A DNA stretch of 64,000 nucleotides from Pelagomonas calceolata (taxonomy: Eukaryota > Sar > Pelagophyceae > Pelagomonadales > Pelagomonadaceae). The translations under genes and the position numbers were made by a program. Of the stretch, positions 36,327-52,246 are shown piece by piece. Below the pieces are notes generated by a model, which was not told the DNA's origin, searched no databases, and was given only the letters and a program-made list of their open reading frames with translations. Numbering within the stretch: the first letter of the stretch is position 1; each line of letters opens with the position of its first letter. The stretch spans positions 1,550,001 to 1,614,000 of the forward strand of contig CAKKNE010000006.1 in assembly GCA_918797485.1 (NCBI GenBank), read 5' to 3'.

Positions 36327-39230
36327 TTACACCTTCAACCTCGCGACCCCCCGCAAGACCCCGCCGCCCGCGCACGCCTCGAGCGAGTCCGCGAGGCCCT
36401 CGTACAAGACTCGCGCCTTCGCGACGTTCTCCTCGCTGTTGACGTCGTGCTTCCCACCAAGATACCGCTCCAGCGCCGCCGACGACACGCGCGCGAAGCT
36501 GTGCAGCGGTAGCGTGGGCGGCGCCTCGTCGCTCGTCTCGAGCGGCACGAAGGGCGTCCCCGGCGAGACCTGGACTTCCACCGAATACCGGCCCTCGGCG
36601 TTCGTATCGTACGACGTGTCCTCCCACAACCGGAAGACCACATGCGACAAATACGACAGCTCTGGCACGGCCGAGAGCCACCGCCGCCCCGCATCATCAA
36701 CGACGGACTCCGTGCCGTGCTCGTTGAGCCGCAGCGCGTCCAACAGCGCGTGCAAGTGCGACTCGGACGTGAAATAGAGTCGAGACCGGACCGCGCGCCA
36801 GTGCGACTTGATTTCAGAGTCCGCCAGGTGCTCGGGGTGGTCGTCCAGCTGGAAATGGAGGCCCGAGTCCTCCGTGTCGCCGCGCGCCGTCCGCAGGTCG
36901 AAGGAGATCTTATCTAGCAACGCACGACTAACGTGCCACGCCGCCTGCCTTCTGGGTTCCGCCGCACTCCCAAATTCTAAAGGCGCCACCGCTTGAGACA
37001 AGGTAGAGGCCTTCTTCACGAGCACGCCGAACCCAGCATCAAAAGATAACGTAAGAGCATTATGTCTAGCGTCGAAGCGCAGCTTGTCGAAAATCTCCGG
37101 AATCTTCGACAGGTCGTACGCCTTTTGGTCGTAGAACTCCTTGCGGATGCACTTCCACGAATCCAACCAGACGCCGAAGCTCTCGCCCATGTACAGTTGT
37201 TCAGTGCACGGTTTTTGCGAGACCTTCTCGATGAACGAACTCATCTCATCGTACAAGTCCCGCAAAGCCCGCAGGGGGTTGCCCAAATCTCTAAGAGCTC
37301 TCAGGACAGAGTCCGGACCGTCGGGCGCGATGAACCTTCGACGTTGCGCGAATTTCGAGTCACTGGAAGCGGCGTCCTCGTCGTCCGAGTCGGGGCCTCG
37401 TAACTCGACGTCGACCTGAAAACACCTCGACACGTGGGCCTTCGACAAAGCGAGCAATTCCTGGGCCTCGTGGTTGCCCGCGCGGTCGAGCATGTGCACG
37501 TCCGAGCGCCCGCGATGAATCAAAGACACGAGAATAGGCGAGATCTCGCCCTCCAATTCTAACAATCCTTTGGTGAAGGCCGCGCCCGTCTTCATGACCC
37601 GACCTTCGTCCGAGGTTCTTATTTTCAAGTCATGCCTAAAAGTCGCATGCAATCTCAAGAGACCTTGGCCGCCCGTCGTCGGGTACATATGACGTCTGAA
37701 ATGCGCGCCGAGCGCCGTCGCGTGCTGCGCACCTAACTCCGTGAGGACGCCGCCCCACTTGAGGACGACCTGGACCTCTGTTGTCTCGTCGTCCTCCCAC
37801 TTGAGGGGCTTGAGCTGCAGCTTGCAGCCCGAGAAGAAGACGCCGCCCAGCAGCTCCTCTTCGTCGTCGAGTTTGTGCGACTTGAGCACCTCCCGGATCT
37901 TGCGGAACGCGTCGATGTCGTCCTTCAGCAAGATAGCTTTGAGGGTCGAAGAAAACGCCCGCAGATCTTTCGACTCTTTGAGCTTGACCTCCTTCTTGGG
38001 CGTCTTGCACCTATCCCTATGGATCTGGACGATTGAAGGGTGAGTCGTCTTGACCTTCAGTTTTCGTTTCGGCGTCCTATCCCCATGGCGGACGACCGCG
38101 ATGACGCATCTTAACTCTCTTCGGGACGGCGCCAAGCCCGAGGGCGACTGCGGTCTGCTACATATCTTTGGTGGACTTGGAGGCAGTTCTCGGGGCGGCG
38201 GCCGCATGTCCACGATGCGGCCGTCCCTACCCCGTAAAATCGCCGCCAACAACGCCGCGCAATCATCATAATACTTCCTACTCTTCTTCACGAAGGACCA
38301 GCCGTTCACGTCGCAAACGAGACACGCCCCATCATGTGTTCGTAATATGTCGAACCCGCACACAGTTTGTCTAAAAGCGTGGTAGATCTTGAAGGCTACA
38401 TCTTTCTCGACCCATGATAATATCACGGGATACCTTAGTTCTTTACCATCAGCACCTCTCAAAACAACCCCATCTAAGGTAGGGGACTTCCGCGCTTCCG
38501 CGTGGCCGTAATAAGGCCCGACGCTATACACCTTGACATCGGTACCTTGCGTGTCCACGAACTCCTCGTACAAATAACTCCCTTCCCGTCTTATCGAGTG
38601 TAGATCAGGTTCGTACTTCGAGCTTTGATTACCAACTTTCCGAAACAGTCGCTTGCAGCCGCCGCCCGCACTGGTAGGATAGTAGACCCGAATATTATGA
38701 TCATCGGAATCCACGGGCTTCTCGACGAAGGGCTTCTCGATCTTCACGCCGTCGATGATTATGGCGTCATCTAGCTCCTCGATTTTTTGCTCCACGTCCC
38801 TATCCCTATTGACGCAGACGTGTCTGGGGGTTGGGACGCCCGCCCTGGCTAGCGTCGCATAGACCAGCCGCCGATCTCGCAACAAATGCTGCCTTCGTAA
38901 ATCGTTGACCACGAAGGGCTTTCTGAGTTTGGCGTATTGGATCGCCTTGTCCAGCGGAAAGCCCGACGAATGGAACGCGATCAGACACTCGACGACGGGC
39001 CACGCCTCGACGGCCGCCTCCAGAATCACCGACTCCTCGAAAATCACGATTTCGAACGCGTCGCCCGGCAGCCGACTCAGGATCTCGCGCATGGGCTTCG
39101 ACTGCGTCTTCTTGGCCATGGCGCAGACACCCAGGGTCGTGCGCTTCGGCGTCGCGAGGCGCGGCGGCGGCCGCGGCGCCGCGTCGGGCGTCGCGGGCAT
39201 GGCTCGTGACGCTGCTCTCCCAGCAGCCAC
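36327..39230 (-). CDS. VIP1: Diphosphoinositol-pentakisphosphate kinase (VIP1/PPIP5K)
   Basis: 967 residues (an ATG ending at 39200 would shorten it by 10). The N-terminal ATP-grasp kinase domain begins TLGVCAMAKKTQSKPMREIL and includes CLIAFHSSGFPLDKAI, PFVEKPVDSDDHNIRVYYP, SYLYEEFVDTQGTDVKVYSVGP and FDILR...CDVNGWSFVK. The C-terminal histidine-phosphatase-like domain begins VIAVVRHGDRTPKRKLKVK, includes EGRVMKTGAAFTKGLLELEG, and ends with LSYLSHVVFRLWED. It makes 1-InsP7 and InsP8 (phosphate and energy signals) and the phosphatase half can remove them. Both domains look intact. The linear arrangement is the usual one for this family. Confidence 0.92.
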   Translation of the reverse strand: MAAGRAASRAMPATPDAAPRPPPRLATPKRTTLGVCAMAKKTQSKPMREILSRLPGDAFEIVIFEESVILEAAVEAWPVVECLIAFHSSGFPLDKAIQYAKLRKPFVVNDLRRQHLLRDRRLVYATLARAGVPTPRHVCVNRDRDVEQKIEELDDAIIIDGVKIEKPFVEKPVDSDDHNIRVYYPTSAGGGCKRLFRKVGNQSSKYEPDLHSIRREGSYLYEEFVDTQGTDVKVYSVGPYYGHAEARKSPTLDGVVLRGADGKELRYPVILSWVEKDVAFKIYHAFRQTVCGFDILRTHDGACLVCDVNGWSFVKKSRKYYDDCAALLAAILRGRDGRIVDMRPPPRELPPSPPKICSRPQSPSGLAPSRRELRCVIAVVRHGDRTPKRKLKVKTTHPSIVQIHRDRCKTPKKEVKLKESKDLRAFSSTLKAILLKDDIDAFRKIREVLKSHKLDDEEELLGGVFFSGCKLQLKPLKWEDDETTEVQVVLKWGGVLTELGAQHATALGAHFRRHMYPTTGGQGLLRLHATFRHDLKIRTSDEGRVMKTGAAFTKGLLELEGEISPILVSLIHRGRSDVHMLDRAGNHEAQELLALSKAHVSRCFQVDVELRGPDSDDEDAASSDSKFAQRRRFIAPDGPDSVLRALRDLGNPLRALRDLYDEMSSFIEKVSQKPCTEQLYMGESFGVWLDSWKCIRKEFYDQKAYDLSKIPEIFDKLRFDARHNALTLSFDAGFGVLVKKASTLSQAVAPLEFGSAAEPRRQAAWHVSRALLDKISFDLRTARGDTEDSGLHFQLDDHPEHLADSEIKSHWRAVRSRLYFTSESHLHALLDALRLNEHGTESVVDDAGRRWLSAVPELSYLSHVVFRLWEDTSYDTNAEGRYSVEVQVSPGTPFVPLETSDEAPPTLPLHSFARVSSAALERYLGGKHDVNSEENVAKARVLYEGLADSLEACAGGGVLRGVARLKV

Positions 39231-44977: not shown

Positions 44978-47545
44978 CTAGGCGGATTCTGATGAGGCGG
45001 CGCCAGGCGCCGCCTTGGGGGGATCCGCGACAAGCGTCGGCCGCCGTCGTCGCCGGTGCGCGAACGCGGCACCCGCGGCCAGGACTGCGACAGCGGCCGC
45101 GCCGACACCAGCGACGCCCGCGTCGTCGATAGCCTCACCACCCCGGCCGCCGGCCCCATCGACCGACGCGTCAGCGTCCGCCCCGGAACCGCCGCCGTTC
45201 TCGAGGACCGTGAGCCCCCCCGCGGCGGGCGCCACCACGAGGTCCGCGGCGCCGTCTCCGTTGATATCCCCGGCCGCAAAGGCGAGCACGGCGCCGGTAT
45301 ACACCTTGCGCCTTCGTACGACGAGCCCCGCCCCGTCGAACCAGTACAGGCCGGCCTGGTCGTCGCGCTCGAAGGCGTCGTTGCCGCGCGCGACGACGTC
45401 CTCCGCCCCACGCCCGTTTAGATCCGCGCCCAGGAGGGCGTCGTACCTCATATCGTCGGTGTCGTACAGCACACCACCGTCGACCGTCGACACCTCCGCG
45501 TCGGCCCGCTTGCCGGCTTCTCCGCCGTGGACGTAGACGGTACGATATGCGACCACAATGTCGTCGCCAACGACCGCGACCGCGCGCTGGCCGCGACCGC
45601 GCGTCCTTAACACTGTCCTCTGGTACTCGAGCCAGTCGTCACCGATCCAAACGTCGTCCTCGCGGTTGCGCGGCATGGACTTCAGCGCGACCACGGTGCC
45701 GGAACAAGGAAGTGTGGGGAGCAGGTCCAGGTCTCCGTCGCCGTCGACGTCTAGGACGACCACGTCAGTAACACCCACCGCGTCAGACGCAGCGAGACGC
45801 TTCGAAAATCCCTTGGACGCACGATACACAGCGACGGTGTCATCCTCGGCCGCCGCCGAGACGACGTCCAGCACGCCGTCGCCGTCGATGTCTGCCGCCC
45901 GGACGACCACAGCACCAGAGGCGACGTCCCGATCCACGATTCGTATTTGCTCACCGTCGAGCGCGTGCACCACCACGGCGCCGGCCTCGTAGCCGACGAC
46001 GATGTCTTCCTCTCCCGCGTCGAGCGCGACCGGGCTCGCGTATTTAGTCGTGACGACATCTCGCGCGATCATCCGCCCCGCCACGTTCTCGTGGATCCGG
46101 AGCCAGTCCCCCTCCGCCGTGACGACGTCCGGGTCGCCATCATTATCAACGTCGACGACCGCGACCGCGTCGAAGCGACCGTCGACGGTATGGTGCTCGC
46201 CAAAAGAGGGACCCATCGTGGGACATCGCTCCGCTGGCTCGGCAACGGCGCACGCATCTCCGGAAGATTCGCGACATCGTACGAGGTCCTCATACGCGTA
46301 CGGCGCCGCGCCCGGCGCCAGCTCGCAGAGGAGCCGCGCGTTTGTCACTAACGTCTCTGGTGATTCGCCGGCGCGCGGCTCGAAACCGAGGTCGTCCATC
46401 GAAAAGCCCCAGCCGTCGCTGAGCGTCTCGTTGAGGAGCTGGCCGGGCGCGCGCCGGCCCGTAAACGCGTCCGTCCCGACCGTGGTGTCAGGATCCAACA
46501 AAGGGTATGCCCAGTAGTCGTCGGCGTCATGAGCGCGCGTCCAGGTCCACCAGTGGCGAGACCGCTCGACGTTTGCGTGGTGGAAGAAGAACACGGGGTC
46601 GTTCGGACCCGCCTGTGTGCGCATCAACCAGTGCTTCGATAGTTCAATTGAATGCGTTGGGAGTTTGATCTGCGCGCTGGGCTCTGCCAAAGTATCCGCA
46701 AAGTCGCCATGGCTGGTCCCGGTGCCACCATCCTGAAAGCCGCCGACCCCTGGGTGCGCACCGCGATGCACCGAGTCGCCTAGGTCGGAGCCGTCCGGCG
46801 CAAATCCGAGGTCGACGCACTTGTTCCATTCCAGGAACGTCGTGGGCTCCTCGACGCAGCGCCAGAACACGTCTTTTTCTAGAGCGTAGTCGCCGCCGAA
46901 GCGGACGACCCCTACAACCGATGTCATGCTATGGGGGTGCCTCAGGTAGCCGGCCGAGTTGCCCGCGACGGCGGTCGAGGCTGAAAACGTCGACGAATTG
47001 GGCGCGTAGTCCGCCAGCGATTTGTGTCGAGGCACTCGCCACGACCCGAACGGGCCGTCAATCACGTCGTAATCATCGCCGAGGCCTGGCGCCGAGCCAA
47101 AGTACGCCCCCCCAAACACCGACGGGGACGTCTCCGAGGCGTCCCAGTAGGGCAACGCTTCGATCGCCGGATCGACCGCGCGGAGCGCCCGTTCGAACTC
47201 GAGGCCGAGCGCAGCGTGCCACGTGGCGAAGTGCGGGCCGTAGTGTGCACCATTTCCCCGTGCGTCAACGCAGGCGGCGTAGTGCTTCGCCGTGAAATAG
47301 TCGTAGCTCCGGTAGGCGGCGCCGTAGGTCGCTTGGCCGTTCGTCGTCGCTACTCGTTTCATGGTGTTCATTGCATTTGTGACGCGCTGCCACTCTGTGG
47401 CGCTCAGGTCCCTGACTTCTCGTCGTACACGTACTCCATCTGGAGCTCGCCAAGGGCAGCTGGGGCAGCTGGTGCCACAGCAGGGTGTTGCTGGTAAGGC
47501 GGCTGCGCCGACGGCTGCGAGGAGGACAAACCCCACGTTCTTCAT
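44978..47545 (-). CDS. Tyrosinase fused to FG-GAP/VCBS repeats and a membrane anchor
   Basis: 855 residues from the ATG ending at 47545 (MKNVGFVLLAAVGAAALPATPCC, signal peptide). The tyrosinase domain covers about residues 40-420: CuA histidines in KHYAACVDARGNGAHYGPHFATWHAALGLEFERAL and CuB in THSIELSKHWLMRTQAGPNDPVFFFHHANVERSRHWWTW, with the usual PYWDAS. After it come about five FG-GAP/VCBS-type repeats with calcium-like DxDxDGxxD loops: DVDNDGDPD, DIDGDGVLD, DVDGDGDLD, DINGDGAAD and DLNGRGAED. A C-terminal hydrophobic stretch (AGVGAAAVAVLAAGAAFAHRRRRR) would anchor it at the surface. Tyrosinases oxidise phenols to quinones, as in melanin or cross-linking of wall or adhesive proteins. The stalk could bind integrin-like partners. 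This join of domains is unusual. Confidence 0.85.
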   Translation of the reverse strand: MKNVGFVLLAAVGAAALPATPCCGTSCPSCPWRAPDGVRVRREVRDLSATEWQRVTNAMNTMKRVATTNGQATYGAAYRSYDYFTAKHYAACVDARGNGAHYGPHFATWHAALGLEFERALRAVDPAIEALPYWDASETSPSVFGGAYFGSAPGLGDDYDVIDGPFGSWRVPRHKSLADYAPNSSTFSASTAVAGNSAGYLRHPHSMTSVVGVVRFGGDYALEKDVFWRCVEEPTTFLEWNKCVDLGFAPDGSDLGDSVHRGAHPGVGGFQDGGTGTSHGDFADTLAEPSAQIKLPTHSIELSKHWLMRTQAGPNDPVFFFHHANVERSRHWWTWTRAHDADDYWAYPLLDPDTTVGTDAFTGRRAPGQLLNETLSDGWGFSMDDLGFEPRAGESPETLVTNARLLCELAPGAAPYAYEDLVRCRESSGDACAVAEPAERCPTMGPSFGEHHTVDGRFDAVAVVDVDNDGDPDVVTAEGDWLRIHENVAGRMIARDVVTTKYASPVALDAGEEDIVVGYEAGAVVVHALDGEQIRIVDRDVASGAVVVRAADIDGDGVLDVVSAAAEDDTVAVYRASKGFSKRLAASDAVGVTDVVVLDVDGDGDLDLLPTLPCSGTVVALKSMPRNREDDVWIGDDWLEYQRTVLRTRGRGQRAVAVVGDDIVVAYRTVYVHGGEAGKRADAEVSTVDGGVLYDTDDMRYDALLGADLNGRGAEDVVARGNDAFERDDQAGLYWFDGAGLVVRRRKVYTGAVLAFAAGDINGDGAADLVVAPAAGGLTVLENGGGSGADADASVDGAGGRGGEAIDDAGVAGVGAAAVAVLAAGAAFAHRRRRRPTLVADPPKAAPGAASSESA

Positions 47546-47905
47546 GGGGCGTCTTTCGGCATTACTACTACAATACGCGGACAGGCTGGTAGCACTAACG
47601 CCGTCAATTGCGAGAAGCCATGTGCACGTGATGAATACCTTCTCGCACAATGTTCTAATTGTTCTTCTATCTGTCTCAATATTATGGGAGTCATTGCTAG
47701 CAGTATTCGCGCGTTCCAACCAGGGAATCAAATTGCGTGCGGGTTTCCTCACGTGTTGATGGAAGGGCAGCCCAAAGTCGTCACGTGTATAGCGAGGACG
47801 GGGTGCAGCGAGCAGCCCAAGTGGCAAGTTGCACCGCGACGCAAGGCCACGGCAGTCGGCAGTCGGCAGGAAGTTTTCAGTCAAAGCGCGTAAGAAAAAG
47901 GGACT
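47546..47905. promoter_or_regulatory. Divergent promoter between tyrosinase and RND genes
   Basis: 360 bp. The minus frame runs through it (ATG at 47884), but its composition before 47545 is not protein-like and the signal peptide at 47545 argues for the shorter start. Both genes probably share this region. No motif stands out. Confidence 0.45.
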
Positions 47906-50900
47906 ATGGGGTCCGATTGCGCCGCGGGCCGGGGTGCGACGCCGTCGGAGGTTGTGTGGGTGCTCGCGCCGGTCATATCAATCATCTGCGCCATGGCCTT
48001 CTTCGGAGCGCGGCGCTTCGGGCTGATCGGCGGGCGCCCGGCGGCGGCGGACCGGCGCCCCGAGGCGTTCGCCGCCGATCTGGTCGTCTCGCACCCCCTG
48101 AAGGTCATCGCCCTCAACGTGTGGCTGATCACGGCGCTGTCGGTCTCGGCCTTCGTCGACGTCGGTTGCGGCGAGCTGCGCGAGTCCATCGACGTGCTGC
48201 TGGACGTGGACGCCTACACAAAGGCGGACAATCGCGCGTCGGAGTGGTACTCGGCGTTTGAGGCCGCAAAGTCCGACACGCGGTATTGCGCCGCGGGGTC
48301 GACGTCGCGGCGGCGCCTCGAGGAGTCGTCCGGCGGCCGCGTCGACACGCTCACGCTGGTGTACCTGCGGAAACCGCTGCATCGGGACGCCATTCGGTCC
48401 CCCGCGCTCCACGACGCGCAGCGGGTCGAGAAGGATTTGATCCTAACCGTCTTTGGGGACCAGGGCTGGCGCGACCACTGCCTACCCACGTACTGGAACG
48501 AAACGGCTTCGCCGCGAGACTGCGCGCCCTGGGCGCGCGACTCGAGCGTGCCCTACTACTGGACGGGCTCGGGACTAACGACGGACTCGGAATTGCGAGA
48601 AGTGGAACAAGTCACGACCTGGATGGCTCAGACTGGCGTCGGCAACGCGTTCTTCTCGGCGAATTTTGGGACCGTCCGCCCGAGGTCGGAGATCATGCGC
48701 TCCACGTTCACGTTCCTGGCCACAGACGACTCCGGGTTCAAGACGTGGCTCGTCGACCACGTCTGGCCGAAAATACTCCAGGAATGGGAGACGTCGTCGT
48801 CAACAATGCGGCTCCTGTGGCTGCAGGGCGACATCAACGGCGCGGAGGTGGCGTCCGCGCTGGGGCTCGACATGGTGCTTTGCGGTATCGCGCTAGTGCT
48901 GGTGTTCGCAGCGCTCATCGCGCACATGCGCTCGCCGGTGCTGGCGATCGTCGCGATGGGCCAGGTCCTGGTGTCGATCCCCGTCGCGCAGTACTTCTAC
49001 CTGCGCGTCTTCGACGTCTACATCATCTACCTGCTGAACTTTCTCAGCGTGTTCATCGTGGCGGGCATCGGCGCCGACGACGCGTTCCTGTTTTTCGACA
49101 CGCTCGCGCAGACCATGGTCGAGCGGCAGCACAAGCGGGAGGGGCTCCGGCGCGTGACCGCGCTCCACGACTGCAAGGGCGACCGCAAGGACGAGCTGAG
49201 TTTCAAGAAGGGCGACGTGTTGATCGTCGAGGACGAGGCCGGCGACGGCTGGTGTCGCGGCCGCCTGGCCGTCGGCGTCGGTAAGTTCCCCGCGACGTAC
49301 GTCGCGCCCTGCGAGGGCCCGCGGCGCGTCACTGCGATCGTTGACCGCAGTCCCCGATGCCGTACCGAAGAGGGCGAGCTCTTCTTCCAGACGGGCGCCA
49401 AAATCCTGGTGGAGGACGACTCGGACGCAACGACGTGGAGCGGGTCGCTCGAGACCGGGGGCGCCTCCGGTCGGTTCCCGGCTGCGCATGTCGTTGGCGG
49501 GAAGCGCTACAAGGCCAAGTTCGACTGCGACGCCGACGCGCAGGACGAGCTCGGCTTCTACGAAGGCGACGTCATCGAGGTCTCCGATCAATCGGACCCG
49601 GACTGGTGGGTCGGGTCCCTAGTGCACGCCAAGGGCGTCTTCCCGGCGATGCACGTGGCCGCCGACGACGAGACGGAGGCGTTCGACGCCGTCGGGCGCA
49701 ACGCGCTCGCGGAGGCGTACCGGCGCGCCGGCGCGTCGATGGCGACGACGTCGTTCACGTCGGCGGCCGCCTTCTATGCGCTCTCCGTGTCTGAGCTGCC
49801 GGCGATCCAGGCGTTCGGCATCTTCACGGGCACGCTCATCATGGTCAACTTCGTCCTCGTCGTCTCGGTCTTTCCCGCCGTACTGGTGCTTTTCCCCCGC
49901 TCGCTGCGCGCGGGCCGCCCGAAGCCGGCGGAGCCCCCCGTCTCGGACCCGGAGAGCGCAACGCCGGCGCCCGACCGGCCCCAGAAAGATGTGCTCAACC
50001 CCCTGGCCCGGGTCCGGCTCAGCAAGAACGTGCGAAAGTTCCTCGACCGGCCGGCCGTCAAGTACGTGACAAGCTCGCTGCACGCTGCGCAGGAGAAAAT
50101 TGGAAGGGGCCTGGACCGCGTGTCCGAGGCGATCACGCCTAGCTCGAAACACGGAGGGTTCCTCGACCGCGACCGCGCGGGAGGCTCGCGGTGGCGCCAG
50201 ACGCTCCAAGGGGAGGTCAACGCCGGTAAGATGGGTTGCCTCGACCGCTTCTTTGGCGTTAGCCTGCCCGGCGTTCTCGTAAAGCGCGCGGGGCTGGTCG
50301 TGGTGCTCACGGTCGCGATGTTGGTCGCCGCCGCGGTGAGCATCGGGCTGGTCGCGGCCGTCGACTACGCGCCGCCACGCTTCTTCCGGCGCGACCACAA
50401 CCTGGGCCTCGTCTATCAAATCCGGGACAAATACTTCCCGGCGGACGGCGGCGTCGCGACGTTGCTCGGGGAGGCCGCCGGCGACGAGAACTATGAGTAC
50501 GGTTCAGCGACCCAGCGCGGGACGGGCGGCTACGACGAGACGCAGTGGAGCCCGCAGTGCTCCGACAAGGTCGGCACGAACGGCGAAATATGCTCCGGAT
50601 ATGGCAAATGCGCCCACACGACCGGGTTTTGTCAGTGTTATGGCGGCTATATGGGCTTGAGGTGTGAATCTCTCGACGAGGAGTACACGGAACCGCCAGT
50701 CACATCGCCGCCGACGATAACGCCCGTTCCGACGCCGGAGCCGGTGCCGACGGTCACGTTCGTCGACCCGAACGCGGCGCAGGCCGGTCCGTCGGCGACG
50801 CCTGCGCCCGCGTCGCTCTCGCCCAGGTCGCCCTCGCCCGGGTCGCCCGCGCCCGCGCCCAGCCCGGCTTCCGGGGAGTCGGGGGACGACGTCGCTCCGG

Positions 50901-52246
50901 TCTGCGTCGACGATACGTGCGGCCGCTGCTCGTGCAGTTCGAACGGCTGTCAGACGGCAGACGGCGCGTGCGATTGCTTCCCGGACTACCGCGGCGAGCT
51001 ATGCGAGTTCTACTACCCCTACGACCTCCAGCACACGATCACGCTGGACGTCGTGCAGGGCGTGCGGTCGCGGCCCGGCCGCCAGTCGGACGCGCATCCG
51101 CACGGCCGACCGCGGTACTGGCGGTCGTACGACTGGTCCGACCCGAACGTGCAGACCTTCGCGCGCGACGCGTGCGCCGAGCACGCCAAGCATGCGCACC
51201 TCAAGATGCGCCGCGAGGACTCGGCCTGTATTGTTGAACTATTTGAAGCCTCCTGGCTCGCCCCGAAGCAAAAGATGCTGCCACTACCGCCGTTCGAGTT
51301 CGAGGCGGAGTTCCTGGCCTACGTCGACAGCAACCCCACGGTAGGCCTCGGCGGCGACTCGATCCTCGACTACGTAGGCGTCGACTGCGACGCCGGGGGG
51401 GGGCGGACGGTCCGCTGGATGCGGGACCGGATCCTCCTGGACGTGCGACCGGACGCTGCGCTGTCGAAGCGCGCCGAGGTCTACCGAAACTGGGTGCGGT
51501 ACCTGCGCCGCCGCGACCACGGGAAGCCGCACGGCGCCACGCGCTCGGTGCTCTCGTCCGACAACTACGTGCTCACGGCGCTGCTCGATGGCGTTATCCG
51601 CGACACGTTGATAGGCGCCGCCGTCGCGCTCGCGTGCGCATACCTCTGCGTCCTCGTCGCGTCGGGCTCGCTCGGCCACACGACGCTCGTCTTCTCACTG
51701 GTCGTCGCCGAGTGCCTCGTGCTCACGTTCACGGTCACGTGCCTGCTGGGCTACGAGATCGGCATCCTCGAGGCGATCTCGATGCCCATCTTCCTGGGTC
51801 TGTCCATCGACTACTCGTTCCACGTCGACCATGCCTACCGCGTCGCGGCGCACGACAACCCCAACGCCGAGCCGGCGAGGCTCGTGCGGCGCGCGCTGGA
51901 GACCGTCGGCGCTCCAGTCTTCGCGGCGGCGTTGACGACGTTCTCGTCGACGTTCGTCCTCATCTTCGCGCGGCTCCTGCCGTTCTCGAGGCTTGGCGTC
52001 ATCGCGTCGATCAACACGACCTACGCGGCCCTGACGGCCCTCGTCGTCCTCCCGTGCTTCCTGCACCTGATGCCGTGCCTCCGGCGAGAGCGGGGCTGTT
52101 GGCAACGACCGCGGCCAAAACTACAGAAGCTCGCGCGGCGCTCGCGTAGCCTTCTGCGCAGCCTCAGCCCGGCGCCCCGCCCCCGGACGCGGCCGGCGGA
52201 CCTCCGAGTCGAGATGAAGCTCGTCAGCATCACGCCCGGCGTATGA
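47906..52246 (+). CDS. Patched/Dispatched-like RND transporter with three SH3 domains inserted in the sterol-sensing domain and two EGF modules
   Basis: 1446 residues. TM1 is near residue 20 or 65 and is followed by a large outer loop. The sterol-sensing module then begins ([62 protein letters not shown]). Right after this TM4 come three SH3 domains: residues about 415-467 (ALHD...[15 protein letters not shown]...GWCRGRL...GKFPATYV), 472-530 (ELFFQTG...GRFPAAHV) and 533-585 ([13 protein letters not shown]...DWWVGSL...GVFPAMHV). The module resumes at [20 protein letters not shown] with TM5 and TM6. The second half has TM7 ([19 protein letters not shown]), an outer loop with EGF modules (about 885-921 and 999-1035) and a proline-rich linker, and TM8-12 with GLSIDYSFH. 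Both GADD and GxxxD coupling motifs are intact. It may export or sense a lipid; the SH3 set probably recruits cytosolic proline-rich partners. Confidence 0.88.

Follow-up and report, generated by a model that had tools for sequence, protein, structure and literature searches.

Can the sterol-sensing domain (SSD) of an RND-type membrane protein be opened to house folded domains of another kind? The question is raised by a gene at positions 47906-52246, forward strand, of a 64,000-nucleotide stretch of the Pelagomonas calceolata genome (the window; coordinates without a contig prefix refer to it). The original prediction placed three tandem SH3 domains inside the SSD of a Patched/Dispatched-like RND protein. 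We searched the protein against Pfam and the PDB, and the gene against the P. calceolata genome (32,445,274 bases in 8 contigs). The protein contains a cassette of 172 residues, comprising two clear SH3 domains and a degenerate third, in the loop between transmembrane helices (TM) 4 and 5, and the same cassette is present in a second gene.

The open reading frame encodes 1446 amino acids in a continuous frame that requires no intron, with only four further in-frame open codons (1450 for the whole open frame). The Pfam search recovered SH3_1 (E-value 7.3e-23), SH3_9 (2.4e-22), MMPL (3.7e-17), Sterol-sensing (3.5e-10) and Patched (1.6e-6), and the SH3, MMPL, Sterol-sensing and Patched models each score above their own cut-off. 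The MMPL match falls in three stretches, and both halves of the protein are visible by hydropathy, together with an extra N-terminal helix. Read from the N-terminus, the hydropathy profile shows this helix and TM1, then the first extracytosolic domain, with TM2-TM4 before the insert and TM6 after it; some 120 residues of linker lead to TM7, the second extracytosolic domain and a C-terminal helix group. TM5 is under the hydropathy threshold and its position was taken from alignments. The protein thus has the two-fold six-helix repeat of the RND/MMPL superfamily, in which TM1 and TM7 are each followed by a large extracytosolic domain.

Within this superfamily the relationship could be narrowed. 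Dispatched accounts for the top seven distinct sequences in the PDB search of the whole protein, ahead of NPC1 and Patched, with Dispatched-1 at 117.6 bits (best stretch residues 1207-1425), NPC1 at 42.1 and Patched at 27.5. Patched-1 and NPC1 share the SSD and the RND fold with our protein but give these weaker matches, and the NPC1 N-terminal domain is not among the nine Pfam families found at E ≤ 1 in the 1446-residue protein. The GADD and GLSID motifs anticipated from the sequence are both present, in TM4 and TM10, respectively. They supply the Asp pair in TM4 and the Asp in TM10 that mark Dispatched, thereby matching the three conserved Asp residues in TM4 and TM10 of human Disp1 (according to passages of PMC8630017). 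The earlier Patched/Dispatched assignment stands as to the RND/SSD class, and judged by these matches the protein is a putative transporter nearer Dispatched than Patched or NPC1.

The cassette lies between GADD (residues 389-392) and the TM5 block. We scanned its domains singly (SH3a, 49133-49309; SH3b, 49304-49498; SH3c, 49493-49666). SH3a scores 44.7 bits with SH3_9 (cut-off 30) and 42.4 bits with SH3_1, and SH3c scores 42.7 bits with SH3_1 against a cut-off of 22.9; the corresponding values in the second gene are 49.9 and 42.7 bits. SH3b alone reaches 15.6 bits with SH3_1 (16.0 in the second gene), short of the curated cut-off. All four Pfam families that SH3b matches at E ≤ 1 are nevertheless SH3 models, and its best PDB sequence matches are the SH3s of Grb2 and STAM (best E-value 2e-4). 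The best PDB matches of SH3a are PACSIN2 (1.3e-12) and Grb2 (1.7e-11), and the best stretch of SH3c pairs residues 536-585 with residues 164-213 of a Grb2 chain. The domain limits first proposed are correct to within a few residues, and the claim of three SH3 domains is correct, with SH3b degenerate; the outcome named beforehand as refuting it, sub-threshold scores for every repeat, was not observed.

Two comparisons show how the cassette sits in the SSD. The SSD profile scores 40.4 bits on the whole protein (cut-off 22.3) but covers only TM5-TM6; with the cassette left out it scores 47.6 bits and spans TM2-TM6. Once residues 411-588 are removed, Dispatched-1 (6xe6) matches the joined flanks with an E-value of 5.9e-23 (84.9 bits), and the best alignment contains a single gap, of 7 residues. 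We conclude that the cassette is cleanly inserted into the TM4-TM5 loop, and the flanking helices are retained as predicted. The joined flanks matched 29 PDB sequences, and the alignments of the best five, all Dispatched, hold no counterpart of the cassette; in these solved Dispatched-1 sequences the loop is short and without an SH3 domain. Short loops also occur among the paralogues: counted from the DD of TM4 to the TS of TM5, seven other SSD paralogues have 35-49 residues, compared with 222 in both cassette genes. This comparison covers the nine genes whose first half matches the SSD profile (10 matches); a gene on contig C5, L037, matches in the second half only and falls outside the set. 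From the established topology of the RND fold we infer that the TM4-TM5 loop, and with it the cassette, faces the cytosol.

The second full-length gene (L028, C2:1708491-1712909) is 92% identical to the first, and its cassette is 93% identical. It has a single in-frame stop, located inside a 51-nt insertion (L028:3225-3275). Read with the insertion as a GT-AG intron, a predicted splice, the gene encodes an open protein of 1457 residues. The insertion, absent from the 47906-52246 copy, includes two 13-bp inverted repeats, CTGTGTGGAAATC...GATTTCCACACAG, at C2:1708731-1708774. Genome-wide, 7 sites carry this exact pair over spans of 44-56 nt, and the insertion resembles a short introner or a miniature inverted-repeat transposable element (MITE). 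Its 51 nt fall below the intron-length peak of P. calceolata, near 210 bp (PMC9481584). When 9.5 kb around the C2 copy were compared with the whole window, notable similarity stopped at the gene limits. Identity between the copies is uneven: 47918-52246 and L028 share two uninterrupted identical stretches of 230 and 259 bases, whereas 500 shuffles gave none longer than 188. This mosaic may reflect uneven constraint, or else conversion between the gene copies on C6 and C2. A close SH3-less paralogue was also noted on the minus strand of the same contig, about 50 kb downstream (L029, C6:1649000-1656500), 38% identical over residues 920-1390 of the query; a sister gene is on C4 (L030, 37%).

We used the two cassette genes to measure selection, obtaining expected nonsynonymous counts by placing the same changes at random (5000 placements). 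With identity this uneven along the gene, the tests lack independence between neighboring sites. Of the 30 nucleotide changes in the cassette, 12 are nonsynonymous where 23.0 are expected, and none of the 5000 placements gave a count as low; the omega estimate is 0.183 (bootstrap 0.092-0.361). Taken whole, the cassette is under purifying selection and is kept as protein. By domain, constraint is seen on SH3b, with 3 nonsynonymous changes (10.8 expected), and on SH3a, with 5 (8.3 expected, P 0.02). Elsewhere in the protein, residues 317-402, including TM2-TM4, show no amino-acid difference between the copies, and the first extracytosolic domain has an omega of 0.316 (28 nonsynonymous changes, 42.2 expected). 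The extracytosolic proline-rich linker (residues 938-1012) is unconstrained (omega 0.855; 34 nonsynonymous, 36.0 expected) and serves as an internal control, and the small TM7 and C-tail pieces give omegas of 1.08 and 1.16 from few changes.

We then asked what the cassette could bind. The positions that we take to form the SH3 groove, on the pattern of Src, are the two Tyr of the ALYDY motif, a Trp, a Pro and the last Tyr. In SH3a, alignments place His421, Cys423, Trp449, Pro462 and Tyr465 there (Gln, Tyr, Trp, Pro and Tyr in the C2 copy). The alignments give Val479, Arg481, Thr510, Pro525 and His528 in SH3b, with Asn at the last position in the C2 copy; in SH3c the positions, assigned by eye, are Phe539, Cys541, Trp567, Pro580 and His583. 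On this assignment the pocket appears best kept in SH3a, partly kept in SH3c and mostly lost in SH3b. SH3a would be the likeliest binder and SH3c a possible one, and conventional PxxP binding by SH3b is unlikely. Since SH3b is under the cut-off and lacks the Trp, not all three domains are likely to be canonical binders.

We propose that the cassette docks the Dispatched-like protein to a cytosolic proline-rich partner, tying its place or activity to that partner, and we judge the chances for and against this proposal to be evenly balanced. The protein, probably ion-coupled, would carry in its enlarged TM4-TM5 loop a built-in adaptor in which SH3a, aided by SH3c, would hold the partner beside the SSD while SH3b would act as a spacer or offer a non-canonical surface. 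The place or activity of the putative transporter would thereby be coupled to the partner, and docking would perhaps be gated by movement of the SSD. In favor of docking are the SH3 and SSD models above cut-off in one open frame, the same cassette in a 92%-identical gene, the far shorter loops of seven other SSD paralogues, the purifying selection on the whole cassette, the agreement of GADD and GLSID with the Asp residues of human Disp1, the retention of Trp449, Pro462 and Tyr465 in SH3a, and best solved relatives of SH3a that are the SH3s of PACSIN and Grb2. PACSIN is an endocytic and actin adaptor. The earlier suggestion that transport might be tied to a proline-rich partner or to the endocytic or actin machinery is reasonable as a hypothesis. 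A precedent for regulated docking on an SSD protein is SCAP, whose cytosolic loop 6 docks with COPII (passages of PMC7272406).

Several observations weigh against docking. Taken alone, SH3a has an omega of 0.246 (bootstrap 0.061-1.2), and SH3c shows no purifying selection, all four of its changes being nonsynonymous; its omega point estimate of 2.0 comes from 0.5 synonymous and 3.5 nonsynonymous changes, there being almost no synonymous change in that domain. In the 47906-52246 copy both ALYDY tyrosines of SH3a are replaced, SH3b and SH3c have no Tyr after the FPA block, and SH3b also lacks the ligand-binding Trp. Single-sequence AlphaFold2 models reached a mean pLDDT of 34 for the cassette and 41 for TM2-TM6 with the cassette, and were left unused.

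The same replaced pocket residues, clearest in SH3b, and the same lack of constraint on SH3c are what would be expected of a tolerated insertion, in which the SH3s, though folded, would serve chiefly for spacing or oligomerization and have no proline-peptide ligand. We consider this somewhat unlikely, given that nonsynonymous changes are below expectation in the whole cassette, in SH3a and in SH3b, and that SH3a of the C2 copy keeps the second ALYDY Tyr and scores higher with Pfam. Docking could also take the form of a lipid- or ion-gated scaffold, in which the conformational cycle of the SSD would expose or hide the cassette and so report membrane sterol or ion state directly to an endocytic or actin network of SH3 ligands in this single-celled alga; this we regard as unlikely. 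An intramolecular switch, in which the cassette would clamp a proline motif of its own TM6-TM7 linker and lock the SSD in a single state pending release by a partner or a modification, is improbable. RND topology puts the linker on the cytosolic side together with the cassette. The linker contains PDRPQK (residues 689-694), conserved in both copies and fitting the class II pattern PxxPx[RK], as well as RPKPAEP (residues 671-677), which fits class I in the 47906-52246 copy. The class I motif is, however, lost in the C2 copy, and inspection by eye shows a class I match, RWRPPTP, after TM6 in the SH3-less L029 as well. At least one such motif occurs in 30% of shuffled linkers and both in 5%, and because the motifs are not rare we rank autoinhibition as a rival only. 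Finally, an unrecognized intron, gene-model error or assembly join that brought SH3 into an SSD gene is very unlikely, close to negligible, because the in-frame, stop-free cassette occurs at two loci on different contigs and is selected as protein between them; its third-position GC content (GC3) is 0.89, compared with 0.885 in the rest of the gene, and P. calceolata has 0.45 introns per gene and a Hi-C-checked assembly with no chimeras detected (PMC9481584).

As to where the cassette came from, a recent foreign origin was considered and rejected, the GC3 values showing no composition shift. A genome profile search gave 18 SH3 matches, 4 of them in the two cassette genes, and part of these were compared with the cassette domains. 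Other genomic SH3 stretches, at 7 places, share 28-40% identity with portions of the cassette. When the cassette domains were compared with one another and with seven further SH3 loci, SH3a and SH3c came out as mutual best matches (43%), which suggests that they may derive from an internal duplication. The best match of SH3b among the compared loci is the SH3 of L036 (C3:4155500-4161000), at 47.5% over 40 residues. A further SH3 match lies 4 kb from this gene, at C3:4162120.

The arrangement differs from the known systems that it most resembles. Dispatched, the best PDB match of both the whole protein and the joined SSD, shares the Asp motifs of TM4 and TM10 and the two large extracytosolic domains. 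Grb2, PACSIN/syndapin and STAM are soluble adaptors. They share the SH3 sequence, and Grb2 also has more than one SH3, whereas here the SH3s are embedded in a polytopic membrane domain. SCAP is also an SSD protein, and it docks under sterol control by way of a cytosolic loop whose MELADL motif engages COPII (passages of PMC7272406); it differs in using another loop and a linear motif rather than a folded cassette, and in having eight helices and a WD40 tail, so that the likeness is one of analogy only. Titles and abstract openings of a part of the open-licence literature, searched for SH3 together with SSD, Patched or Dispatched, describe no such protein, in agreement with the original statement that the arrangement is undescribed; "SH3" does not occur in the main text, as available, of two oomycete SSD papers (PMC8530017, PMC9927452). 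Collections of viral and genome contigs gave 4 and 7 pattern matches, none confirmed, in a single-protein query that detects close relatives only.

The features of the gene are collected below. L029 and L030 have, by eye, an N-terminal hydrophobic stretch similar to that of the present protein, so all three may possess 13 helices, or else a signal anchor. Divergent from the gene, a tyrosinase and FG-GAP repeat protein is encoded at 44978-47884 on the minus strand, with 21 bases between its open reading frame and the 47906 start codon. Further away, 36327-39230 (minus strand) encodes a PPIP5K-like inositol pyrophosphate kinase/phosphatase by Pfam.

Table. Coordinates of the SH3/SSD gene and its parts in the window (aa, amino-acid residues)
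Feature	Position	Strand	Evidence
Whole coding sequence, Dispatched-like RND/SSD protein with SH3 cassette	47906..52246	+	Open reading frame, Pfam, PDB, genome search
Extra N-terminal hydrophobic helix, signal anchor or TM0, aa 11-37	47936..48016	+	Hydropathy
TM1, aa 67-85	48104..48160	+	Hydropathy
First extracytosolic domain, aa 86-316	48161..48853	+	Located between TM1 and TM2
SSD TM2-TM4, aa 321-397, holds GADD aa 389-392 (49070-49081)	48866..49096	+	SSD profile, alignment, hydropathy
SH3a, aa 415-468; Trp449, Pro462, Tyr465 kept	49148..49309	+	SH3_9 44.7 bits; PACSIN2, Grb2
SH3b, aa 469-531, degenerate; Thr510 at Trp position	49310..49498	+	SH3_1 15.6 bits; Grb2 2e-4
SH3c, aa 532-586; Trp567, Pro580 kept	49499..49663	+	SH3_1 42.7 bits
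SSD TM5-TM6, aa 601-670	49706..49915	+	Pfam and alignments
TM6-TM7 linker, aa 667-790, cytosolic by topology	49904..50275	+	Hydropathy
TM7, aa 798-816	50297..50353	+	Hydropathy
EGF-like stretch in second extracytosolic domain, aa 892-920	50579..50665	+	EGF_2 7.8e-4, 20.2 bits, under 22.1 cut-off
Extracytosolic proline-rich linker, aa 938-1012	50717..50941	+	Omega and substitution counts
TM8-TM12, aa 1234-1392, holds GLSID aa 1298-1302 (51797-51811)	51605..52081	+	PDB match, hydropathy

SSD and RND proteins are known to communicate with the cytosol mainly by tails and linear motifs. The present gene shows that an SSD can be opened at the TM4-TM5 loop without losing the flanking helices, and the two natural cassette copies, together with the SH3-less paralogue about 50 kb away, offer a ready comparison. 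If the docking proposal is true, a folded docking cassette beside the helix of the ion-coupling Asp pair would link the transport cycle directly and physically to the cytosolic machinery.

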